A stretch of 64,000 nt of DNA from Chloroflexota bacterium (GTDB lineage Bacteria > Chloroflexota > Anaerolineae > B4-G1 > DUEL01): assembly GCA_014874475.1 (NCBI GenBank), contig JADBJJ010000026.1, positions 186,001-250,000 of the forward strand, given 5' to 3'. Both the position numbers and the translations under genes were made by a program. Positions 5,382 to 25,831 of the stretch are shown in pieces (the stretch's first letter is position 1; the number at the start of each line of letters is the position of its first letter). The notes beneath the pieces are model-generated. The model saw nothing but the letters and a program-made list of their open reading frames with translations. It was not told where the DNA came from and ran no database searches.

Positions 5382-8300
5382 TCACGCCATCATTTCCCCC
5401 AATTCCTGCAGTGTCCGCACCACCTCCTTCGGCAGGGTCGGCGGCTTCTTCCCTGCTGCGTAGCACCCCCAGATCAGTTGCGCCGTCCGCTCCACCACCT
5501 CCAGGATGTTGCAGGCCCGCCGCAGGCTCGTCGCCGCCACCACTATGCCGTGGTTCTGGAGCAGAGCGACGGGATTGCGGCCCATCGCCTTCACGACGGC
5601 TTCTGCCAGTTCCTTCGTCCCCGGCATAATGAACGGAACCACCGGCACCTCCCGGAAGAAAGCGGCTTCGGTGGTGATGGGCAGGAACGGGAGCCCGCTC
5701 AGGGCCAGAATCGTCGCGTAGGGTGCGTGGGCGTGGACCACAGCCTGCACCTCCGGGCGGGCCCGGTAGATGGCAGTGTGCATCGGCCACTCCGACGATG
5801 GCGCCGGTACACCCTCATCCAGGACGTTCCCTGCCAGGTCTATCCGCACCATCAACTCAGGCCGCAGGTCGCCCTTATAGAGTTGACTGGGCGTGATCCA
5901 GCACTCCTCCCGACCCTCCACCCGGACGCTCACATTCCCGCCGGTGGCGGTGATGAGTCCCAACTGATAGAGTTCGTTGATGGCTCGGACCATCTCCGCG
6001 CGCGGGTCTTTCTCCGTCGGGGTAGGGGGCAGACCGACAGCCGGCGCCCTGCCGGCAACAGCCGGGGCCGGTGCGGCTGCAGGGGTGTAGGGCAGACTAT
6101 CCGTCGGCGCTATGCCCACCTCCTCCCGCGCCGCCGTATAGAGGCGAACCAGGTCGCCCTGGACCCGCTGGACACCCATCGCGATCCGGACATCTCCGCT
6201 GAAGGAGAGTTTGCCGCTCATGGCCGCCTTCTGCCCGCTGATGCGGCCGGTGAGGATGTCGTCCAGCACCTGTGCTGTCGCCTTCATACGGACCTCTGCC
6301 GGCGTGGGCGATGGGCCCAATCCAGCGATCACTTCCCCGTCCTGGAAGCCGATGTAGAACTCCAGTCCTAGGTCGGTCACCGTGTAGTGGGTAGTCACCC
6401 GCCGTTTGGCGGCGAAAGCCCGCAGCGCCGGGTCAGCGACGGCCTTCTCGCAGAACCGGCGCAGGATTTCCTCAACCGTATTGCGGATCGTCTGTTCCGT
6501 ACTCCCTGCGACTTGCGACATGCGACTGGCTCCTTGTTCCTCTGCTCCCTGCTCCGTGCGACGGGCGACCTGTAGGTCTACAATCGCCGGGCCGGGGCGC
6601 TCTGCGATGCTCTCTAGGGCCTGCTGATCGGCGCTCCGGCGCGGGCCTGTCCAGGAGAACCCTTCCAGCGTCTGCGGGTTCAGGATATGGCGCGGTCGCT
6701 CCCCCGCCAGCATCCGCCGCAAGTCCTCCACGATGATGCGGCCCTGGTGGGCCGCTACCTCCTGCGTGTTCCCCCCGATGTGCGGCGTGGCGATGACGTT
6801 GGGTAACTGGAGAAGGGGGTGGTCCGAGGCCGGCGGCTCCACGGAGAAGACGTCCACCGCTGCCCCCGCCAGATGACCGCTCCGCAGCGCTTCCGCCAGT
6901 GCCTCCTCGTCCACCAGCGCGGCTCGGGCGGTGTTGATCAGAAACGCCCCCTGCTTCATCCGGGCCAGCGCCTCCTGCCCGATGAGCCCGCGCGTCTCGT
7001 CGGTGACTGGCGCATGCAGGCTGACGAAGTCACTCTGGGCCAGCAGGTCCTCCAGGGAGACCCGATCTGCATCGTACCGCGCGGCGTCTTCCGGGCGGAT
7101 GTACGGGTCGTAGACCAACAGACGGACGCCGAAGGGCGCCAGCCGCCGGGCGACCTCCCGCCCGACGGCGCCCAGTCCGACCAATCCCACCGTCTTCCCC
7201 CAAAGTTCCCGGCCCAGGAAGGTCTGGTACGCTTGTCCCATACGACCCATATCTTCCGCCTCGCCGCCCGGCTGGCGCAGGAACTCGTTGGCGGGGATGA
7301 GTTTGCGTGCCAGTGCCAGCATAAAGGCCACCGTCAGGTCGGCGACGGCGTCGGCGTTGCGGCCGGGTGTGTTGAGGACGGGGATCCCCAGCGCACTGCA
7401 GGCCTCCACATCCACGTTCACCACCTGCCCCCGGCAGGAAGCGACAACCCGCAGGTCCGGCAACTCCCTCAGCGCCTCCAGGTCTACGATATCTGCCTCA
7501 GTGATGAAGACGTGGACCCCCTGCAGGGCTTCCACCAGGTCATCACCGGTCAGAATCCGCAGCCCTTCCCGATAACTGGTGTGCTCTACTTCTCCCAGAC
7601 GGCGGAGTTCGGCCAGACTCTCCTCGTCCATCTGCGCGGTGACCAGAATCTTCGGGCGGAAGGCGATGCGTACGGGCGTGGCGGCCTGGGCTACAGCGGC
7701 TTCTATCATCCGGGCGGCGACCCGGTCGTGACCGTCCGCCAGAGCGGCGCGCAGGTCCCGCCATTCGTTGTAGAGGGCTTCGTATATCCGAGCATTCTCT
7801 TCGTTCGGGTGGACGGTGCGGATAGGGGCCAGGCGCGCTGCTCCCTCCGCCAGGTCCGCGAAGAGTCCGGCGCCGACCCCGGCGCAAATGGCCGCGCCCA
7901 GGGCCGTTCCCTCCGGGATTTCGGGGACCCGAATGGGCTGCCCCAGGACATCGGCGACCAGTTGGGCCCAGAAGGGGTTACGGGTGAGGCCGCCGGTTAA
8001 CCCGTAGCGCGGGCGGCCAGCCTGTGCCCCCGTATGCAGGCTGACGGCCTGCGCTACGACCGCCGCGACCTGCTCCACGTTGGCCCGTAGGACGAAAGCC
8101 AGCCCCTCCAGGACGGCCCGACAAAAGTCGGCCCGGCGGGAGGGGCCGTCGCCGCCCAGGAAGGGAGAGAGGGTGAGGCTTCCCACAGGGAAAGCCATTG
8201 CGCGAGCGTTGAAGACCTGTCCACCGAAGGTGGAAAGGATGCCCCCGGCGCCAGGTCGGGCCATTGCAGCCTCCCCGACCATCCGGGCCGCCGGTCGGGG

Positions 8301-9245
8301 TGACTCCGGGAAGAGGAGCCCGGCCAGCCAGTCCAGTGCTTCCCCCAATGGCCCCCCGTTGCTTTCCACGACCCAGCGGTCGGGCAGCAGGTGGGGCCGG
8401 GTCCAGAGGCGGCCTTCCGGGTCCAGGGTGGGGCGGTCGGCGACGCCCTGCACCGGCCCCGTCGTCCCGGCGACGATACCCACGTCACCGGGGCCAGTGG
8501 CGCCCAGAGCCAAGAGCGCGCACTGGGTATCGGCCCCGCCCACGCTCACGGGGATCCCCGGCACCAGTCCCAGGTCGGCGGCGGCAGAGGCCATCAGCCG
8601 TCCCAGGAGCGTCCCCGCCGGGCGGATGGGCGGGAGAAGCGATGCCGGGAGCCCCAGTTCCGCCAGGAAATTCGTCATCCACTCCCGCCGGGCGACGTCC
8701 AGGAGCATGCTCTCCCCAGCGTGGGAGAAATCAGTTGCGGCCTCCCCGCAGAGGCGGTAAGCGGCCCAGTCGCCGACGGTGAGCGCCACTGCGCCTTCCA
8801 GCCACTGGGGATGACGCGCGGCCAACCAGACCAGGCGCGGGGCCATAAACATCGGCGCGGGCCAGCAGCCAGTGCGGCTGCAGACCCGCGCGCCCAGTCC
8901 GGCGGCCATCTCCATCCCCTCGGCGGCCGCGCGGGCATCCCTGTTGGGGGCAGCGAAGAGGACCTCCCCACCTCGCACCAGCACCAAACTGTGGCGCATA
9001 GAGGCGGCGGCGATTCCGGCGACATCTGCGGGGGCGGCGCCGGCGCGCGCCAGTGCTTCCCGGACCGCCTCCGCTAACAGAGCCCAGTTGCGCTCCGTGT
9101 CAAAGTCATACGCCCAGCCCCCGTCGCCGGCGGGCGGATGTTCCCACCGGCGGACAGTGAGAGTTGTCCGTCCGTTCTCCGTATCCACCAGTAAGGCCCG
9201 GATGGAGCCACTACCGGCATCCAGGCCAAGAAGGTATCGGGGCAT
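5382..9245 (-). CDS. Four-domain fusion: FGGY kinase - 2-hydroxyacid dehydrogenase - SCP2-like - class II aldolase
   Basis: One uninterrupted 1287-residue frame holds four domains. Residues 1-515 are an FGGY sugar kinase (LGLDAGSGSIRALLVD; GGADTQ; GLTGGLTRNPFWAQ). Residues 525-855 are a D-isomer 2-hydroxyacid dehydrogenase with G690-L-G-A-V-G695, Arg774, Glu803 and His822. Residues 915-1038 resemble an SCP2 lipid-carrier fold. Residues 1078-1287 are a class II (fuculose-phosphate type) aldolase with Glu1152 and zinc ligands His1171, His1173 and His1232. All four look intact. Linkers are polar (856-915) and Ala/Pro-rich (1050-1078). An adjacent kinase-dehydrogenase pair is known in Bacillus subtilis (yoaC-yoaD), and such kinases phosphorylate xylulose or AI-2-like sugars. 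I infer a channelled phosphorylation, redox and retro-aldol route for a sugar acid or branched polyol. AAGGAG precedes the ATG. Confidence 0.88.
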   Translation of the reverse strand: MPRYLLGLDAGSGSIRALLVDTENGRTTLTVRRWEHPPAGDGGWAYDFDTERNWALLAEAVREALARAGAAPADVAGIAAASMRHSLVLVRGGEVLFAAPNRDARAAAEGMEMAAGLGARVCSRTGCWPAPMFMAPRLVWLAARHPQWLEGAVALTVGDWAAYRLCGEAATDFSHAGESMLLDVARREWMTNFLAELGLPASLLPPIRPAGTLLGRLMASAAADLGLVPGIPVSVGGADTQCALLALGATGPGDVGIVAGTTGPVQGVADRPTLDPEGRLWTRPHLLPDRWVVESNGGPLGEALDWLAGLLFPESPRPAARMVGEAAMARPGAGGILSTFGGQVFNARAMAFPVGSLTLSPFLGGDGPSRRADFCRAVLEGLAFVLRANVEQVAAVVAQAVSLHTGAQAGRPRYGLTGGLTRNPFWAQLVADVLGQPIRVPEIPEGTALGAAICAGVGAGLFADLAEGAARLAPIRTVHPNEENARIYEALYNEWRDLRAALADGHDRVAARMIEAAVAQAATPVRIAFRPKILVTAQMDEESLAELRRLGEVEHTSYREGLRILTGDDLVEALQGVHVFITEADIVDLEALRELPDLRVVASCRGQVVNVDVEACSALGIPVLNTPGRNADAVADLTVAFMLALARKLIPANEFLRQPGGEAEDMGRMGQAYQTFLGRELWGKTVGLVGLGAVGREVARRLAPFGVRLLVYDPYIRPEDAARYDADRVSLEDLLAQSDFVSLHAPVTDETRGLIGQEALARMKQGAFLINTARAALVDEEALAEALRSGHLAGAAVDVFSVEPPASDHPLLQLPNVIATPHIGGNTQEVAAHQGRIIVEDLRRMLAGERPRHILNPQTLEGFSWTGPRRSADQQALESIAERPGPAIVDLQVARRTEQGAEEQGASRMSQVAGSTEQTIRNTVEEILRRFCEKAVADPALRAFAAKRRVTTHYTVTDLGLEFYIGFQDGEVIAGLGPSPTPAEVRMKATAQVLDDILTGRISGQKAAMSGKLSFSGDVRIAMGVQRVQGDLVRLYTAAREEVGIAPTDSLPYTPAAAPAPAVAGRAPAVGLPPTPTEKDPRAEMVRAINELYQLGLITATGGNVSVRVEGREECWITPSQLYKGDLRPELMVRIDLAGNVLDEGVPAPSSEWPMHTAIYRARPEVQAVVHAHAPYATILALSGLPFLPITTEAAFFREVPVVPFIMPGTKELAEAVVKAMGRNPVALLQNHGIVVAATSLRRACNILEVVERTAQLIWGCYAAGKKPPTLPKEVVRTLQELGEMMA

Positions 9246-9258
9246 AATCGATCTCCTT

Positions 9259-9366
9259 TCAGGGTGTCACCGGGTTTCAGTTCGCCACTGAGAATCTGCC
9301 GTCGGAGTTGCTCACGAAACTGGTAGATGGGGATAGGGCTTTGGGGGGGTCTACGCGCAAAATCAT
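9259..9366 (-). pseudogene. Remnant of a GntR-family regulator N-terminus
   Basis: Directly upstream of the fusion gene, the minus strand encodes PIPIYQFREQLRRQILSG followed by ELKPGDTL. This is the start of the GntR winged helix, but the frame then runs into the fusion gene's ribosome site and the rest of the regulator is gone. Starting from the ATG at 9366, a run of seven C residues (9343-9349) throws the frame off; five or eight would restore it. The promoter at 9396-9423 presumably once served this regulator. Confidence 0.65.
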
Positions 9367-11165: not shown

Positions 11166-12158
11166 ATGGCCATCTTGATGGACGTCAGGAACCTGGTCAC
11201 CCGTTTCTACACCCAGGACGGGGTCGTCCATGCCGTCAACGGTATCTCCTACACGATGGAGGAGGGGGAGATTCTGGGCGTGGTCGGCGAGAGCGGATGC
11301 GGCAAGAGCGTCCACGCCCTTTCTATCATGCGTCTTATCCCCAGTCCCCCGGGGAAGATTGAGAGCGGCGAAGTTTGGTTTGACGGGCGCGATCTGATGC
11401 AATTGAGCGAGGCCGAGATGCACCATGTGCGCGGCGCGGAGATTGCAATGGTCTTCCAGGACCCGATGACCTCGTTCAACCCTGTCTTCACGATCGGCTT
11501 CCAGATTATGGAAGCCCTGAAACTCCATCAGGGGATGGACGATAAACAGGCCCGGGAGCGGGCCGAAGAGTTGTTGACTATGGTAGGCATTCCGGAGGCG
11601 AAGACCCGTCTGGACGATTATCCCCATCAGTTCTCCGGCGGTATGCGCCAGCGGGCGATGATCGCAATGGCCCTTTCCTGCAACCCCAAACTCCTCATCG
11701 CCGACGAGCCCACCACCGCCCTGGACGTAACGATTCAAGCCCAAATTATTGACCTGGTGAAGCGACTTCAGGAGCAATTGGGCATGGCGGTGATGTGGAT
11801 CACTCACGACCTGGGGGTGGTGGCCCGGCTGGCTCAACGGATCAACGTGATGTATGCTGGATTCATCATTGAACGGGGCTATGTAAAAGATATCTACAAG
11901 CGGCCCTGCCACCCCTACACGATGGGCCTTTTGGGGTCGCTGCCCCGGCTGGACGAGGCGCCGGGGACCAAATTGGTTTCCATCCCTGGCCTCCCGCCCG
12001 ACCTGATTGACCTGCCGCCGGGCTGTCCCTTTGTCCCCCGCTGCACGTACGCGGTGGACCGGTGTGTGGGAGAGATACCGTCTCTCCAAGAGGTGGACGG
12101 AGCGAATCATCTGGTCGCCTGCTGGCGCTGGGAAGAGATTTCAGGGAGGAGCCGATAA
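11166..12158 (+). CDS. Oligopeptide/dipeptide ABC transporter ATPase (OppD/DppD type)
   Basis: This 330-residue nucleotide-binding subunit powers peptide import at the inner membrane. It shows Walker [10 protein letters not shown] at about 38-46, signature [15 protein letters not shown], Walker [13 protein letters not shown] and the H-loop WITHDLGVV. The C-terminal extension with the [10 protein letters not shown] cysteine motif is the oligopeptide/dipeptide C-terminal domain typical of OppD, DppD, OppF and DppF. AAGGAG precedes the ATG. Its stop overlaps the start of the next gene by one base (TAATG), so the two ATPases are translationally coupled. Confidence 0.93.
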
Positions 12159-13141
12159 TGGCCGCTGAACGAGTCCCTCTGGTCCAGGTCATCCATCTGA
12201 AAAAGTATTTTCCCATTACCCGTGGGGTCATTTTCCAGCGGCACATCGGGGATGTCAAGGCTGTAGACGATGTCAGTTTTGATATCTACAAGGGCGAAAC
12301 GCTGGGGCTTGTGGGCGAGACGGGCTGTGGGAAGACCACCGTCGGGCGTACTATCCTGCGCCTCTACGAGCCAACTTCCGGCGAGGTCATCTTTGACGGT
12401 GTGGACATTATGAAATTGAAGGGCAACGAACTGCGCCGGATGCGCCGCCGGATGCAAATTATCTTCCAGGACCCCTACGCCTCTCTGAACCCCCGGATGA
12501 CCGTGGGGGCCATCATCGCTGAGCCGCTGGAGGTCCACGGCGTCGCCCGGGGCAAAGAGAAGGAAGAGCGGGTGCAGGAATTGCTGCGGGTGGTCGGGTT
12601 GAACCCGTACTTCGTAAACCGCTACCCCCACGAGTTCTCCGGCGGTCAGCGACAGCGCATCGGCATTGCCCGCGCCCTGGCTCTCAACCCCGACCTGATT
12701 GTCTGCGATGAGCCCATCTCCTCGCTGGATGTCTCCATCCAGGCTCAGGTGGTCAATCTGCTGGAGGACCTCCAGGAACAGTTCGGGCTCACCTATCTCT
12801 TCATCGCCCATGACCTGAGTATGGTCCGCCACATCAGCGACCGGATGGCGGTGATGTACCTGGGCAAGATTGTGGAGTTGGCCGACCGGGATGAGATTTA
12901 CTTGAACCCGTTGCATCCCTACACTCAGGCACTGATGAGCGCAGTGCCGGTTCCAGACCCAGAGATTGAGGAGAAGCGGCAGCGCATCATCCTGAGGGGC
13001 GAAATCCCCAGCCCGGCCAATCCGCCGAAGGGCTGCAACTTTAACACCCGCTGCCCGGTGGTGATGGACGTCTGCTACGAGGCCGACCCGGAGTACCGGG
13101 AAGTGAAGCCGGGCCACTGGGTGGCCTGCCATCGGGTGTGA
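12158..13141 (+). CDS. Oligopeptide/dipeptide ABC transporter ATPase (OppF/DppF type)
   Basis: This 327-residue second ATPase carries Walker [10 protein letters not shown], signature [15 protein letters not shown], Walker [13 protein letters not shown] and the [13 protein letters not shown] cysteine-bearing C-terminal motif. It pairs with the preceding OppD-type subunit to form the ATPase heterodimer of the peptide importer. I start it at 12158, where GGGAGG lies eight bases upstream and the ATG overlaps the previous stop. The membrane and binding-protein genes of the same system resume at 14435 after an inserted unrelated gene. Confidence 0.93.
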
Positions 13142-13327
13142 CAGCAGACGGCTGACGACGGACGATGGAGCACAGACAATCAGGGGAAATGGGGCTGATT
13201 TTCACCGGTTGTTCTGGGAGGGCCTGGAGATGACCCCCTCTTGGGCACCGTGACGCGGGGGATTCTTGGGCTGGTCTGGAATCCGTTCACCCGTGCTTTA
13301 CAACTGATGCAGTAAGGAGATGGGGGG
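13142..13327 (+). other. Spacer between ATPase gene and the broken coiled-coil gene
   Basis: No gene is assigned. A start-less open stretch ends at a TAA at 13314-13316 and would encode a hydrophobic tail (GILGLVWNPFTRALQLMQ). It may be the residue of a lost gene end, and there is nothing further to support it. Confidence 0.25.
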
Positions 13328-14302
13328 ATGTTCCGGCCTGAAGGAGGCACTGGGGCCACCGAAATCACCTGGGAGGACCTGATCCGGGTTCTGGAGGAGC
13401 GCCCGGAGTGGCTGGCGCGCGTCCGCCAGGTAGTGCTCACTCCGGACCTGCTCTCCCTGCCGGAACAGGTCCGGCAACTGGTGGAGGCCCAGCAGCAAAC
13501 CACCCTCCAGATTCGGGAACTGGTGGAGGTCCAGCGGCGGCACGAAGAGCGGCTGGCTGGCGTGGAGGAGCGGCTGGGCCGCCTGGAGACCACCGTTTAG
13601 GAACTGCAGGAGGCCCAGGAGCGAACCAACCTCCAGATTCAGGAACTGCGGGAAGCCCAGGAGCGAACCAACCTCCAGATTCAGGAACTGCGGGAAGCCC
13701 AGGAGCGAACCAACCTCCAGATTCAGGAAATCTGGAAGGTGCTGGAAGAGACCAACCTCCGGATTCAGGCCCTGGAAGCCATTGTTCGGGATTTGGTCAA
13801 AATAGTCAGTACACTAGCCAAGTCGGTTCGGGCTCTTGGTGTGGATATGGCCCGGATGAAGGGCTTCTACCTGGAAATGCAATATCGGCAAAAGGCTTCC
13901 GCTTATTTTGGTCGCCTTCTGCGTTCTATCCGGGTCATGATGCCCGCGGATATAGAGGACCTGCTGGAGCCTAACCTGACACCTGAAGAGGTGGAGGACC
14001 TGATGCTGCTGGACCTCCTCATCTCGGGGCGGCTCCGCCGGGATCCCCAGCGGCCGGAGGTGATGCTGGCACTGGAGATTTCCTTCACAGTGGGCAAAGA
14101 GGACATCCGACGGGCGCGGGAGCGTGCAGGCTTGCTCCGGAAAGCGGGTTTCCGGGCCGTCCCGGCCGTGGCGGGGGCGGAAGTCTCCCTGGAAGCATTG
14201 GACCTCGCCCGGGCAGAGCGGGTCGTCGTGTTTGAGGACGGACAGGTTTTCCTGTGGGATGAAGCCCTGCAGCATTATCTGGGAGGAGGGCCGGCAAGTT
14301 AG
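13328..14302 (+). pseudogene. Coiled-coil PD-(D/E)XK-like protein broken by an in-frame TAG
   Basis: The reading frame from ATG 13328 to stop 14302 would encode 324 residues but is cut by TAG at codon 91 (13598-13600). The same frame continues without shift, and the expected residue is Gln (TTV-Q-ELQEAQ), so a single CAG-to-TAG change explains it. Residues about 50-150 are coiled coil, including three 14-residue repeats (ELREAQERTNLQIQ). The C-terminal 110 residues (EVMLALEISF, EDIRRARERAGLLRKAG, then VPAVAG) resemble the degenerate PD-(D/E)XK nuclease-like domain found with such coiled coils in Chloroflexota and cyanobacteria. It could be a true pseudogene, suppressed, or a sequencing error. 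It interrupts the peptide transporter genes. Confidence 0.75.
13601..13726 (+). repeat. Three tandem 42-bp repeats in the coiled-coil gene
   Basis: Units at 13601-13642, 13643-13684 and 13685-13726 are nearly identical, and each encodes one 14-residue double heptad. The first differs at two bases. Such repeats change copy number by slippage. Confidence 0.9.
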
Positions 14303-14434
14303 CGGATTGCTGACTTGCTGATGCTCCGACTCTCCGAAAGGAGGTGATGTCTATCGGTGAGGCGAGGAGACGTTCCCAACTCTCTGCGTTACTCTTCAAA
14401 ACTGTACCCAACATCCATTAACAGGAGGAGAAAG

Positions 14435-16216
14435 ATGTCCAAGAAGTGGTCTATTGCGGCCATCGTAGCCGTGGTGGCTATGCTGGTGGTCACCGCCTGC
14501 CAGCCGACGGAGGTGGTGAAGACCGTGGTGGTGACCGTTCCTGGCGAGGCCAAAGAAATCGTGGTGACGGCGACTCCGGAGCCGGTGGGCCGTCCCAACA
14601 TCCTGCGCGTCAACCTGGGCCCGGGCGATGTCCCGACGCTGGACCCAGCCCTGGCGACCGACACGTCCTCCGTCCAGGTGATTGATATGCTCACTGTGGG
14701 TCTCACCCGCCTGGACGAGGTGACGCTGGAACTGAAGCCGGGCATGGCCGAGAAGTGGGATGTCTCCGAGGACGGGTTCACCTATACCTTCTACATCCGC
14801 CAGGGCATCCCTTGGGTGGGCTGGAATGGCCAGGCAGTGGAGCAGGTCGTGGATGAAGAGGGTAATCCCCGCATGGTGACTGCTCATGACTTTGAGTACG
14901 GCATCAAGCGGACCTGCAACCCCGAGACCGCCTCGGACTATGCTTACGTCCTGGCCTATGCCGTGAAGGGCTGCAATGAACTCCTGAATGCGGAGGGCTT
15001 TGCCGAGAAGACCTCCGAGGAGAAGCAGGCCCTGATTGACGGCGTGGCGGCCAAGGCGCTGGATGACTACACCCTCCAGGTCACCTTCACCACCCCAGCC
15101 GTCTACAACCTGAACATCATCGGGATGTGGGTGGCCCATGCTATGCCGAAGTGGCTCATTGAAGAGCGGGGTGACCGCTGGACCGAGACGGGCTTCAACC
15201 AGTCCTACGGGCCTTACGCTCTGAAGGAGTGGGTGCACGACTCCTACATCACCATCGTCAAGAACCCGTTCTGGCCCGGCATTGAGAGTTCCCCGCAGGC
15301 CAGCATTGAGGAGATTAAATTCACAATGCTGGATGCGTCCCCGGCCTTCGCTGAGTACGAGGCGGGCAACCTGGATGTGGCGGGCGTTCCTCTGGCCGAT
15401 ATGGATCGCGTGAAGGCCGACCCGGTCCTCTCCAAGGAACTGGTAATCGGGCCGATGGCCTGCACCTACTACTATGGCTTCAACACCTCTAAGACGCCGA
15501 CGGATAACGTCCACCTACGCCGGGCCCTCTCGCTAGCCATTGACCGCCAGGGGCTGGTTGACAACGTCCTCAAGGGCGGTCAGCAGCCGGCCCAGTGGTT
15601 CTGTCGGCCCGGTATGGCGGCCTGCCCCACGATGGATAAGTATCCGGACCTGGGCGTCAAGTACGACCCGGAGAAGGCCAAGGCGGAACTGAAGGCCTAT
15701 ATGGACGAGATGGGCTTCACGGACGTGAGCCAGATCCCCGAGATCATCCTCATGTTCAACACAGCCGAGGGCCACAAGCGGATCGCTGAAGCCATCTCGG
15801 CGATGTGGAAGGAGGTTCTGGGCATCCAGGTGACCATCACCAACCAGGAGTGGAAGGTCTACCTGAAGACGATCCAGGAAGACTCCCCCAACGTCTGGCG
15901 GCTGGGCTGGTGCATGGACTACCCGGATGCCAACAACTGGACCCGGGAAGTCTTCGCCATCGGTGGGCATGAGGAAGCCGCCACCCAGTGGCGCAACGAG
16001 GAGTTCACGAAACTCCTGGAGGAGGCGGCCCTGGAGAAAGATCCGGCCAAACGGCAAGATATGTACGCTCAGGCCGAGCAGATTCTGGTCTGGGAGGACG
16101 CGGCCATCGCTCCCATCTACTGGTACACTCGCGTCACCTGCACCAAGCCGTACGTGAACCGCACCTTCTCCCAGCACGGCCACGAGATGTTTGAGAAGTG
16201 GAGCATCCAGCCGTAG
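14435..16216 (+). CDS. Oligopeptide-binding lipoprotein of the ABC transporter (SBP family 5)
   Basis: This 593-residue extracytoplasmic receptor delivers peptides to the permeases downstream. It starts with a lipoprotein signal (MSKKWSIAAIVAV) ending in the lipobox VVTAC, so Cys22 is the lipidated residue. A Val/Thr-rich spacer (VVKTVVVTV, EIVVTATPEP) follows, as is common in Chloroflexota binding proteins. The body is family 5: LDPALATDT near the start, then YTFYIRQGIPW, and GWCMDYPDANNW near the ligand cleft. I start at 14435 because AGGAGGA precedes it; the frame is open upstream. Confidence 0.92.
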   Translation: MSKKWSIAAIVAVVAMLVVTACQPTEVVKTVVVTVPGEAKEIVVTATPEPVGRPNILRVNLGPGDVPTLDPALATDTSSVQVIDMLTVGLTRLDEVTLELKPGMAEKWDVSEDGFTYTFYIRQGIPWVGWNGQAVEQVVDEEGNPRMVTAHDFEYGIKRTCNPETASDYAYVLAYAVKGCNELLNAEGFAEKTSEEKQALIDGVAAKALDDYTLQVTFTTPAVYNLNIIGMWVAHAMPKWLIEERGDRWTETGFNQSYGPYALKEWVHDSYITIVKNPFWPGIESSPQASIEEIKFTMLDASPAFAEYEAGNLDVAGVPLADMDRVKADPVLSKELVIGPMACTYYYGFNTSKTPTDNVHLRRALSLAIDRQGLVDNVLKGGQQPAQWFCRPGMAACPTMDKYPDLGVKYDPEKAKAELKAYMDEMGFTDVSQIPEIILMFNTAEGHKRIAEAISAMWKEVLGIQVTITNQEWKVYLKTIQEDSPNVWRLGWCMDYPDANNWTREVFAIGGHEEAATQWRNEEFTKLLEEAALEKDPAKRQDMYAQAEQILVWEDAAIAPIYWYTRVTCTKPYVNRTFSQHGHEMFEKWSIQP

Positions 16217-16230
16217 CGTATGGCTCCGAA

Positions 16231-16258
16231 GGGCAGGGCCCCAAAAGGGGCCCTGCCC
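16231..16258 (+). other. Perfect 12-bp hairpin between binding-protein and permease genes
   Basis: GGGCAGGGCCCC (16231-16242), loop AAAA, then GGGGCCCTGCCC (16247-16258). No T-run follows. Position and shape suggest an RNA-stabilising or attenuating hairpin that leaves more binding-protein mRNA than permease mRNA. Confidence 0.7.
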
Positions 16259-16280
16259 ATCCTTCATCCGGAGGTTCTGA

Positions 16281-17336
16281 ATGGGTCGGTACATCGCCCG
16301 TCGTTTCTTATGGACATTGGTGGTGTTGTTGGTTCTCTCACTAGTGACATTCGCTCTGCAACGCGCTGTACCGGGTGGTCCTTTTGACCGCGAGAAAAAA
16401 CTGCCGGAAGAGATTATCCGCAATCTGGAAGCCAAATATCACCTGGATGAACCCTACTGGAAGCAGTATCTGCGGTATCTCAGTGACGTGCTAGTTCCGC
16501 GTATCGTCAAAGGGGAGCCCAAGTCGCTGCTGGAGGAATCCTTGTTTGACATTAAGTTGTGGGATGATTATCACCTGCGCTGGGTCAACCTGGGCCCCTC
16601 CTATAGTTCCCGCAGCCGAACGGTCAACGATATCGTTCGGGAACAACTTCCGGTCTCCTTTCAGTTGGGCGTTGCTGCCCTCACCATTGCCGTTCTCATC
16701 GGCATCCCGATGGGTATCATCGCCGGGCTCAAGCAGAACACCATCTGGGACTATCTTGGCATGAGTGTCGCCATTTTTGGCGTCTCGGTGCCCGTTATCG
16801 CGATGGGTCCGATCCTGGTCTGGATCTTCGGCGTGATGCTCAAGTGGCTCCCGCCTACCGGCTGGGGAGCCAAGCCACCGTATATCCTGTTCTTCATTCC
16901 CAGCGACCTCTCCTGGAACTTCTGGCGCTACGTCCTGATGCCGGCCTTCGCGCTGGGTCTGGGGCAATCCGCTATCATCGCCCGCCTAACCCGCGCCAGC
17001 CTGCTTCAGGTCATTCGGGAAGACTATATCCGCACAGCCCGGGCCAAAGGCTTGCCGGAGCGGCTGGTCGTCCTGCGGCATGCCCTGCGCAACTCTCTTA
17101 TCCCTGTTGTAACGGTGCTGGGCCCGATGTTTGCCGCAGTGGTCACCGGTACCTTCGTCACCGAGCAGATTTTCGGCATCCCGGGTCTGGGCAAGTATTT
17201 TGTCACCAGCGTCACTAACCGGGACTACCCGGTCATTATGGGGACCATCCTGCTGTACGCGATTTTCCTGGTTCTGGCCAATCTGGTGGTGGATATCACG
17301 TACGCCTGGTTGGACCCGCGTATCCGGTACGAGTAG
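16281..17336 (+). CDS. Oligopeptide ABC transporter permease (OppB/DppB type)
   Basis: This 351-residue inner-membrane subunit has an N-terminal helix (RRFLWTLVVLLVLSLVTF) starting right after MGRYIA, as OppB/DppB proteins do. It also has a periplasmic loop of about 100 residues, five further helices and the ATPase-contact EAA loop (RTARAKGLPERLVVLRHAL). GGAGG lies upstream of the ATG at 16281. It forms the translocation channel with the OppC-type protein that follows ten bases later. Confidence 0.93.
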   Translation: MGRYIARRFLWTLVVLLVLSLVTFALQRAVPGGPFDREKKLPEEIIRNLEAKYHLDEPYWKQYLRYLSDVLVPRIVKGEPKSLLEESLFDIKLWDDYHLRWVNLGPSYSSRSRTVNDIVREQLPVSFQLGVAALTIAVLIGIPMGIIAGLKQNTIWDYLGMSVAIFGVSVPVIAMGPILVWIFGVMLKWLPPTGWGAKPPYILFFIPSDLSWNFWRYVLMPAFALGLGQSAIIARLTRASLLQVIREDYIRTARAKGLPERLVVLRHALRNSLIPVVTVLGPMFAAVVTGTFVTEQIFGIPGLGKYFVTSVTNRDYPVIMGTILLYAIFLVLANLVVDITYAWLDPRIRYE

Positions 17337-17346
17337 GAGGATGGGT

Positions 17347-18366
17347 ATGGCAGAGTCCAGTCGTGTAGAGGCATTGCGGACCGCCCTTCCCCAGCGGCGC
17401 AAGACAGCCAGCCTGTGGGCCGATGCCTTGTATCGGTTGAGCCGAAACAAAGCCGCCATTCTGGGGGGGACTCTGGTCATTCTGTTGACACTTACTGCTA
17501 TCTTTGCCCGTTACATCGCGCCCTATCCGTACGATGTACAGGACCGGAATGCCGCCAACGCGATCCCGACCTGGATGCTGGAAATCTTCCCGATGATGAA
17601 ATCCTACGCGGTCATCTCGGATAAGTTTCCTCTGGGGGCGGATTACGTGGGGCGGGATATGCTGAGCCGCCTGATTTACGGCACTCAGATTTCCCTTGCT
17701 GTCGCTTATGTGGGTCCCATTATCGCTCTGCTGGTAGGAACGATCTATGGCTTGATCTCGGGCTATTTCAGCAGGTGGGTGGATAATATTATGATGCGCT
17801 TCGTGGACCTGATGTATGCCTTTCCCAGCCTGCTGCTCATCATCCTGATGATGGCGTTCTTCCGATCCACCTTTGCCCAGAGCGAGCCCGGAACGTTTGC
17901 CTATGTGATGAACAAGATTGATGAGCGCTTCGGCGGGATGCTCTTCATATTCATTGGCATCGGTCTGACGGCCTGGATGGGCACGGCTCGGCTGGCCCGG
18001 GGGCAAGTCCTCTCTATCCGGGAGCAGGATTTCGTGCTGGCTGCGCGAGCAGTAGGTGCCAGCCACCTGCGCATCATCTTCTCTCACATCATGCCCAACA
18101 TTCTGGGCCCTCTGGTCATCACGGTTACGCTGGCGATTCCCGGCTACATCACCACCGAGGCGTTCCTGAGTTTCATCGGCCTGGGCGTCAATCCGCCGAC
18201 TCCCAGTTGGGGCTCCATGATTTCCGACGGGAGCCAGGCCATCCGCACCTACCCGCCGCAGGCCATCCTCCCAGCGCTGGCTCTCTCCATCACGATGTTC
18301 GCCTTCAACTTCCTGGGAGACGGTCTGCGGGATGCGCTGGACCCGCGCTTGCGGGGGACGCAGTAG
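17347..18366 (+). CDS. Oligopeptide ABC transporter permease (OppC/DppC type)
   Basis: This 339-residue partner permease has the OppC N-terminal helix (KAAILGGTLVILLTLTAIF), a long periplasmic loop, and the EAA loop (LAARAVGASHLRIIFSHIMP) before the last helices. The C-terminus AFNFLGDGLRDALDPRL is diagnostic of OppC/DppC. AGGAGG touches an ATG at 17341, but a second in-frame ATG at 17347 has correct spacing, so I use that one. A terminator follows at 18383. Confidence 0.92.
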   Translation: MAESSRVEALRTALPQRRKTASLWADALYRLSRNKAAILGGTLVILLTLTAIFARYIAPYPYDVQDRNAANAIPTWMLEIFPMMKSYAVISDKFPLGADYVGRDMLSRLIYGTQISLAVAYVGPIIALLVGTIYGLISGYFSRWVDNIMMRFVDLMYAFPSLLLIILMMAFFRSTFAQSEPGTFAYVMNKIDERFGGMLFIFIGIGLTAWMGTARLARGQVLSIREQDFVLAARAVGASHLRIIFSHIMPNILGPLVITVTLAIPGYITTEAFLSFIGLGVNPPTPSWGSMISDGSQAIRTYPPQAILPALALSITMFAFNFLGDGLRDALDPRLRGTQ

Positions 18367-25647: not shown

Positions 25648-25826
25648 AAAAAGACCCCGCCGTGCCGTGTGCCGCAAAGTTTTGAACCCGCTTTCGCAGG
25701 TGGGAACCTACCCAGCAGGTCTGCCTTGCCCGCAGGGCTACCGCATTCCTGTCCGCGAGATCGGTTCCCGTTGTATAGGTGTTGGCTCAAAACCCCAGTT
25801 CGGCGATCACCAGCACAGCAGGGTTA
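25648..25826 (-). ncRNA. ssrS: Probable 6S RNA
   Basis: A promoter on the minus strand (TATAAT at 25837-25832, TTTGCG at 25860-25855, 17-base spacer) would start an RNA of about 179 bases. Its 5' bases CCCTGCTGTGCTG pair with the 3' bases CGGCACGGCGGGG, closing the whole molecule, and the 3' arm runs straight into TCTTTTT. Internal words such as TTTTGAGCCAACACC in the 5' half and GCGGGTTCAAAACTT in the 3' half lie on opposite sides of a central region, as in bacterial 6S RNAs. 6S RNA binds the housekeeping RNA polymerase in stationary phase. No covariance search was possible. Confidence 0.7.
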
Positions 25827-25831
25827 CCCAT

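Follow-up and report, generated by a model that had tools for sequence, protein, structure and literature searches.

A single-chain kinase, dehydrogenase, SCP2-like and aldolase protein of Chloroflexota with a possible retro-aldol function

In this study, we describe a gene within a 64,000-nucleotide stretch of Chloroflexota DNA (the window) whose single frame of 1287 codons joins an FGGY kinase, a D-2-hydroxyacid dehydrogenase, an SCP2-like domain and a class II aldolase. Every domain comes from a known family, and the four-domain single chain was not found in the published papers we searched. Its single origin and wide spread, over at least ten families of Chloroflexota, flag an uncharacterised pathway and suggest that the four activities are kept joined by selection. 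The substrate of this pathway may be sugar-like and bear a greasy tail. Our leading reading, to which we assign a probability of roughly 0.4, is that the protein would be a multifunctional retro-aldol pathway enzyme, its SCP2-like domain most likely holding the non-polar end of the substrate or product.

The four-domain frame

The gene spans 5382..9245 on the minus strand, a strand that the preliminary description did not give and on which all features below also lie. It opens with an ATG, contains zero internal stops in the open reading frame and sits entirely within a single 288 kb contig; GC content of 0.80 at third against 0.51 at second codon positions gives it a coding-type composition. 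A ribosome-binding-like AAAGGAG, read directly from the sequence, lies upstream of the ATG at 9245 (9252..9258). Just before the gene, the truncated N-terminal remnant of a GntR regulator (SPIPIYQFREQLRRQILSGELKPGDTLK; 9257..9342) shows 71% identity over 28 aa and 58% over 33 aa to the GntR regulators heading the related operons of genomes G457 and G001.

In agreement with the composition first proposed for this frame, every domain scored above its Pfam cut-off. The kinase comprises FGGY_N (PF00370; aa 4-245; 8511..9236; 117 bits, cut-off 28.8), with the phosphate-loop D9 and the catalytic D239, and FGGY_C (PF02782; aa 258-458; 7872..8474; 58 bits, cut-off 27). A palindromic repeat encoding about 18 aa lies in frame inside the kinase domain (VAQAVSLHTGAQAGRPRY; 8004..8057); this domain is 10-12 aa shorter in other Thermoflexus copies, and the repeat is missing from other families. 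A linker whose length hardly varies within the fused clade (about 30 aa; here aa 501-528; 7662..7745) leads to the dehydrogenase (aa 533-856; 6678..7649), in which both family domains (PF00389, 2-Hacid_dh, aa 533-856, 65.6 bits, cut-off 24.6; PF02826, 2-Hacid_dh_C, aa 639-824, 208.6 bits, cut-off 25.1) are accompanied by a GxGxxG motif at 690-695, an NAD-type D713 and the Arg-Glu-His triad R774, E803 and H822. The SCP2-like domain (PF02036; aa 927-1028; 6162..6467; 46.5 bits, cut-off 21.3) is flanked by two variable linkers, one before it (aa 861-915; 6501..6665; 47-143 aa in the fused clade, Pro/Ala/Ser rich in many copies) and one before the aldolase (aa 1047-1078; 6012..6107; 16-38 aa, Pro/Ala-rich). 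The class II aldolase itself (PF00596; aa 1084-1257; 5475..5996; 177.8 bits, cut-off 22.2) aligns with fuculose-phosphate (4c25) and DrdA-type (6btd) aldolases, with retention of the Glu and three His metal ligands of this type (E1152, H1171, H1173 and H1232, aligned to 4c25 and 7x78) as well as the phosphate-site motifs (N1104, S1150). The catalytic residues examined, which the preliminary description had seen in each enzyme domain, are all kept in the 12 complete fused copies, with the exception that the called start of the G587 copy falls after the first kinase phosphate motif.

The same description singled out the SCP2-like part as the oddest, a judgement borne out by its distribution: it belongs to a conserved but sparse subfamily, present in 5 of 301 phylum genomes, whose members accompany this system and are also attached to some ketol-acid reductoisomerases. 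PF02036 exceeded its gathering score in three other fused proteins too. Sequence matches to solved SCP2 structures were weak (best E 0.039, to human MFE-2), and a structure prediction of the SCP2-aldolase part from five closely related sequences reached a pLDDT of 37.5, too low for a cavity to be discerned. In its placement between long variable linkers the domain resembles a mobile carrier, with a putative lipid ligand.

Distribution and origin of the fusion

The same domain order is complete in 12 copies, which come from 10 families and two classes of Chloroflexota. Identity to the window protein is 85% in the full-length copy of the congener G012, 68% in G058, 67% in G452 and G587, 59% in G523, 52% in G151 and 51% in G199 and G704, and further complete copies occur in G665, G490 and G035. 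Three more genomes (G007, G011, G008) carry the same frame across the domain joints in copies ended by contig ends, and G371 shows an apparent frameshift in the dehydrogenase part, where its congeners G199 and G704 are intact. A search of genome contigs returned congeners and one archaeal aldolase as its only matches. SCP2 is present in all fused copies with a mean identity of 51%, equal to that of the kinase.

In trees of the kinase and dehydrogenase parts, every fused protein falls into one clade with support of 100/100, indicating that the fusion arose by a single event and was then inherited. The sister-genus genomes G001 and G002 have separate genes, placed in a different clade; by the same trees, these are not a split version of the window locus. 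Separate genes in the sister genus and relatives cut by contig ends might speak for an assembly or frameshift artefact joining independent genes, but this explanation, whose probability we consider negligible, is refuted by twelve complete, independently assembled copies in one clade. With no stop or frameshift between the domains and with congeners that are fused too, the original view of one chain stands.

Unfused operons and recurrent neighbours

In relatives, the homologous parts are found as adjacent separate genes, usually together with a GntR regulator and an aldehyde:ferredoxin oxidoreductase (AOR). Their order is GntR-SCP2-dehydrogenase-kinase-aldolase-AOR in G001, G457 and kin, and dehydrogenase-SCP2-kinase-aldolase in G449, G524 and G572. 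The operons of G484 and G546 hold kinase, dehydrogenase and aldolase without an adjacent SCP2 gene, and SCP2 is therefore not essential to the core chemistry. AOR adjoins the system in 7 families and an aldehyde dehydrogenase (ALDH) adjoins the fusion in G199, G371, G704 and G490; the window's own genome encodes an AOR orthologue, 74% identical, on another contig. The "self-contained catabolic machine" of the preliminary description was thus a fair first guess, given that the parts are also adjacent genes and that one fusion event joined them, but "self-contained" is too strong for a system that repeatedly has AOR or ALDH as a partner encoded by a gene of its own.

Some relatives add a rare class III aminotransferase, an M28-type peptidase and an HpnA-type reductase, which in G587 run head to tail as GntR-AOR-aminotransferase-M28-HpnA-fusion. 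The aminotransferase is found in 7 of 366 class genomes, six of which have the system (two of these unlinked), a co-occurrence with a hypergeometric P of about 1.5e-6 when shared ancestry is ignored. The aminotransferase is PigE-like and the reductase related to SdmB/OleD. In Thermoflexus, neither of these partners, aminotransferase or HpnA, has a close copy. A polyketide-cyclase/lipid-transport gene lies within the G449 and G524 operons. The neighbours that recur include no recognised isomerase and no recognised transporter dedicated to sugars. A peptide-type ABC transporter beside the window gene was considered as part of the system and rejected: although a similar set adjoins the G151 fusion, other genes occupy this place in the congener G012. 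Control by a SAM riboswitch or other RNA, as might be expected by likeness to yoaDC, was likewise rejected, RNA-family searches of the window having matched only tRNA and 6S, and those of seven related loci a single tRNA.

A candidate pathway, its rivals and known systems

In the retro-aldol pathway we favour, the NAD-type dehydrogenase and LsrK-like kinase domains would act on a polyol, ketose or hydroxy acid to give a phosphorylated ketone, in the simplest case a ketose 1-phosphate, which the class II aldolase domain would then cleave into dihydroxyacetone phosphate (DHAP) and an aldehyde. The separate tungsten-type AOR or NAD aldehyde dehydrogenase would oxidise this aldehyde. The SCP2-like domain, probably mobile on its two flexible linkers, would most likely bind an amphipathic substrate or the aldehyde product by its non-polar end, and one fused protein would hold most of the proposed pathway. 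Supporting this model, unfused operons contain exactly the same parts as the fused chain, and a hydrophobic substrate is hinted at by SCP2, the polyketide-cyclase/lipid-transport gene, the PigE-like aminotransferase, the SdmB/OleD-related reductase and the linker pattern. The first step is a guess, as no gene that would point to the substrate, one for an isomerase for instance, is recurrent. Against the model we count that 2-hydroxyacid dehydrogenases normally act on acids rather than polyols, that the structural matches of SCP2 are weak and that the aminotransferase and HpnA partners have no close copies in Thermoflexus. Should SCP2 indeed shuttle substrate from one active site to another, sugar-phosphate chemistry would be added to the range of lipid-carrier domains, and the SCP2 tails that recur on other enzymes in these bacteria might be explained. 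A bolder version, which we regard as unlikely, is a bacterial analogue, in one chain, of sphingosine breakdown with its kinase, lyase and aldehyde oxidation, in which a mobile SCP2 domain would take an amphipathic polyol lipid from the sites of the dehydrogenase and kinase and deliver it to the aldolase, yielding DHAP and a lipid aldehyde for AOR; if true, this would be a lipid head-group pathway without a described equivalent.

The ordinary catabolism of a soluble sugar, ketose or sugar acid (pentulose, deoxysugar or tetronate type), with SCP2 as a structural or dimerising spacer only, is a doubtful though serious alternative. FGGY kinase plus class II aldolase follows fucose/rhamnose logic, the aldolase scores best against ribulose-5-phosphate epimerase, fuculose-phosphate aldolase and 3-oxo-tetronate-4-phosphate decarboxylase models, AOR or ALDH would oxidise lactaldehyde or glycolaldehyde, a GH2 glycosidase lies near the fusion in G199, G371 and G704, and the core also exists without adjacent SCP2. 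However, every score is below equivalog cut-offs (for L-fuculose-phosphate aldolase, NF005302, 114 bits against 264), leaving the fuculose or xylulose identities considered earlier unsupported, and both the lack of a recognised recurrent isomerase or sugar transporter and the retention of SCP2, as conserved as the kinase, argue against a soluble sugar. Biosynthesis or remodelling, in which the aldolase would condense DHAP with a long-chain aldehyde while the other domains make a polar lipid head group, appears improbable. Class II aldolase equilibria favour condensation, as stated for DrdA (PMC6079011), unusual sphingolipids have been linked to Anaerolineae (PMC11334938), and the HpnA-type reductase, the PigE-like aminotransferase and MacB/HlyD exporter genes occur near several copies; yet the adjacent GntR/UTRA regulator and AOR or ALDH suggest catabolism, and the exporter neighbours may be chance.

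Breakdown of AI-2 (DPD) or a similar signal, with dehydrogenase and aldolase in place of LsrG/LsrF, was among the initial suggestions and is now quite improbable. AI-2 kinase is the top NCBIfam model for the kinase and LsrK its top solved structure, and a SorC-type regulator related to LsrR and DeoR stands beside the G151 fusion. Nevertheless, the resemblance is confined to the kinase, whose 262.5 bits fall far short of the 528 required for LsrK; LsrK itself clusters with a different Chloroflexota kinase (G425) and not with the fused clade, the G151 regulator scores higher as DeoR (211) than as LsrR (156), and no LsrACDB, LsrF or LsrG was identified among the annotated neighbours of fused and unfused loci. 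Still less probable is the breakdown of bacteriohopanepolyol side chains, whereby kinase and aldolase would release DHAP and a C32 hopanal, AOR would form hopanoic acid and SCP2 would hold the hopane. The chemistry parallels the DHAP shunt (PMC6079011), an HpnA-family gene scores above its cut-off in operons, and HpnH adjoins HpnA in the fusion-bearing genome G035. But squalene-hopene cyclase occurs in 3 of 396 class genomes and in 0 of 31 system-bearing ones (G035 being covered in part), so that a cell-made substrate, which HpnA had raised, is not supported and only imported hopanoids are left.

To place the protein in context, it can be set beside several known systems. The LsrK of E. coli and LsrK-like FGGY kinases are the best family and solved-structure match to the kinase part and share with it the motifs SMR and N-x-DARA, which surround the substrate site, but the fused kinase scores below half the curated cut-off, sits on a separate branch and has no identified lsr operon genes nearby. 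YoaD-YoaC of B. subtilis, likened here by family description rather than sequence, are neighbours of the same kinase and 2-hydroxyacid dehydrogenase families, but are separate genes with no SCP2 or aldolase partner named; their role in cysteine degradation via glycerate is a published guess (PMC2885750). The DrdA/DrdK/DrdI DHAP shunt and the L-fucose/L-rhamnose pathways likewise use a kinase and a homologous class II aldolase to make DHAP and an aldehyde. Unlike the fused system, they need an isomerase and have no dehydrogenase-SCP2 fusion, and the shunt kinase is described as 5-methylthioribose-kinase type rather than FGGY, so the shunt's set of isomerase and such a kinase with the aldolase is not the one seen here. 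Peroxisomal multifunctional enzyme 2 (MFE-2) and SCPx are also multidomain enzymes with SCP2, but combine it with other enzyme domains for beta-oxidation, and the SCP2 domain of MFE-2 is terminal whereas that of the fused protein is internal. Within Chloroflexota, the unfused operons hold the same homologous parts as the fused gene, but as separate genes, in another order and outside the fused clade.

One gene for four domains

On the minus strand of the window, positions 5382-9245 form an intact frame of 1287 codons. Four domains on it pass their Pfam gathering scores: FGGY kinase and D-2-hydroxyacid dehydrogenase, both complete, followed by SCP2 and class II aldolase. This bears out the preliminary description, which had placed all four in one frame. 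A 288-kb contig encloses the frame, its codon-position GC is as in a real gene, and a ribosome-binding-like AAAGGAG closely precedes it on the same strand. The frame is one gene.

Each enzyme domain had also been said to hold its catalytic residues, and these are indeed nearly invariant across 12 complete fusions. Invariant are the kinase catalytic Asp, the GxGxxG, NAD-type Asp and Arg-Glu-His of the dehydrogenase, and the Glu and three His of the aldolase; the sole gap in the motif table is the first kinase motif of genome G587, upstream of its called start. In alignment, solved fuculose-phosphate aldolases share the aldolase motifs, as does 6btd, an enzyme of the type of DrdA, the DHAP-shunt aldolase. 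In these 12 fusions, mean pairwise identity is 68% for the dehydrogenase, 60% for the aldolase and 51% for both kinase and SCP2. The kinase-dehydrogenase linker is near constant at about 30 aa; those flanking SCP2 vary (47-143 residues on one side, 16-38 on the other) and are mostly Pro/Ala/Ser-rich, as expected if SCP2 were a mobile domain.

Within the kinase domain, a palindromic repeat (window 8004-8057) is read in frame. Its core motif recurs in other Thermoflexus copies (L037, L039, L040), both intergenically and within linkers, which suggests a repeat element that can enter coding regions.

Distribution and ancestry of the fusion

The same domain order had been proposed as something to seek elsewhere, and it was recovered widely when the order, the class and the phylum were searched. 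The congener G012 carries a full-length fusion (85% identity), and complete fusions were also found in G058, G452, G587, G523, G151, G199, G704, G665, G490 and G035, giving 12 copies in 10 families with the window's own; only G058 is from another class. All three complete fusions rechecked with Pfam kept the domain order. In G007, G011 and G008 the fusion continues over domain joints up to contig ends, which also cut some further relatives. The genomes compared are mostly metagenome-assembled; relatives in the contig scan were Thermoflexus/Thermoflexales and other Anaerolineae, and the search outside Chloroflexota consisted of a single pattern scan of genome contigs, whose reach is confined to close relatives. 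An apparent frameshift splits the fusion of G371 in its dehydrogenase part (L064 7287-11214); congeners G199 and G704 are intact.

A maximum-likelihood tree built from concatenated kinase and dehydrogenase sequences groups the 15 fused rows behind a branch of support 100/100, with unfused operons outside, for which a single fusion event is the simplest reading. Thermoflexus has the fusion, whereas in its sister genus (G001, G002) the genes are separate and belong to a different clade, which implies horizontal transfer or differential loss.

Genomic partners and a possible pathway

Neighbouring genes were predicted by a simple script based on codon usage, with annotation of representatives only. 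Unfused operons comprise GntR/UTRA, SCP2, dehydrogenase, kinase, aldolase and aldehyde:ferredoxin oxidoreductase (AOR) in G001, G457 and kin; dehydrogenase, SCP2, kinase and aldolase in G449, G524 and G572, preceded in the first two by a polyketide-cyclase/lipid-transport gene; and GntR, kinase, dehydrogenase and aldolase, with no adjoining SCP2, in G484 and G546. Directly upstream of the window's fused gene, a truncated GntR regulator N-terminus (9257-9342, minus strand) has first codons like those of GntR genes heading related operons, which suggests descent from a GntR-headed operon.

AOR neighbours the system (kinase, dehydrogenase and aldolase, mostly with SCP2, fused or adjacent) in seven families; the window's genome has an AOR orthologue (74%) on a different contig. 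An NAD aldehyde dehydrogenase (ALDH) adjoins the fusion in G199, G371, G704 and G490. G587 has a head-to-tail run of GntR, AOR, aminotransferase, M28-type peptidase, HpnA-type reductase and fusion. Of 366 class genomes, 7 have the PigE-like aminotransferase; six of these 7 also carry the system, with the aminotransferase on a separate contig in two (P ~1.5e-6, shared descent ignored).

The analysis establishes the parts, their conservation and their linkage. In the pathway inferred from these, kinase and dehydrogenase would prepare a phosphorylated ketone, which the aldolase would split into DHAP and an aldehyde for oxidation by AOR or ALDH. Since no isomerase was recognised as a recurrent neighbour among annotated representatives, a ketose would be reached most simply if the dehydrogenase oxidised a hydroxyl; the dehydrogenase may equally well act later, on the acid product. 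Together, SCP2 and neighbouring lipid-type genes hint, with modest confidence, at an amphipathic substrate.

Several further arrangements were observed. Putative ABC-transporter binding-protein and permease genes, read from first residues, follow AOR in G012 (L167 1567-5256, contig C98), and similar putative transporter and MoaA-like cofactor genes, likewise read, lie near aminotransferase and HpnA in G449 (L169 3045-8232, contig C28). Upstream of its fused gene the window carries an oligopeptide-type ABC transporter operon (11166-18366); in G151, ATPases and a binding protein resembling those of this operon adjoin the fusion. The window also holds a 6S RNA gene (25650-25827, minus strand, 77 bits). 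A related kinase-dehydrogenase pair, perhaps serving another pathway, accompanies a nucleoside-hydrolase-like gene, Zn-alcohol dehydrogenase and SorC-type regulator in G589 (L129 3780-9696) and G683 (L130 8503-14738).

The fusion's SCP2 subfamily also ends ketol-acid reductoisomerases of Thermoflexus G007 and, in another family, G041 and G045 (L070 3843-5357; L102 301-1887; L105 250-1869), and probably one on G009 contig C66. Two genes from the fusion, a GH2 glycosidase ends in an SCP2-like domain (L063 5284-7446, G199; L064 4170-6269, G371), of a different subfamily and scoring 23.5 bits in G199 (cut-off 21.3).

Comparison with known systems

Relevant comparisons include the logic of L-fucose and L-rhamnose breakdown, SCP2 fusions in MFE-2/SCPx, and sphingosine breakdown. 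HpnA suggested a hopanoid link, which was tested and is unsupported for hopanoids made by the cell. In G035 (L171 6605-11693, contig C153), HpnA is close to genes for a sulfotransferase and HpnH (404 bits, cut-off 225), although no squalene-hopene cyclase was found in listed genomes of its order or, within G035, on contig C153. The AI-2 kinase LsrK is the kinase's nearest by sequence, but the fused kinase falls below the LsrK cut-off and groups elsewhere; the aldolase domain missed the fuculose-phosphate aldolase cut-offs. The yoaDC pair of B. subtilis, cited in the preliminary description, are known kinase-dehydrogenase neighbours, their function being a published guess only (PMC2885750). The closest working analogy is the DHAP shunt (PMC6079011), which, unlike the system described here, has no dehydrogenase and requires an isomerase.
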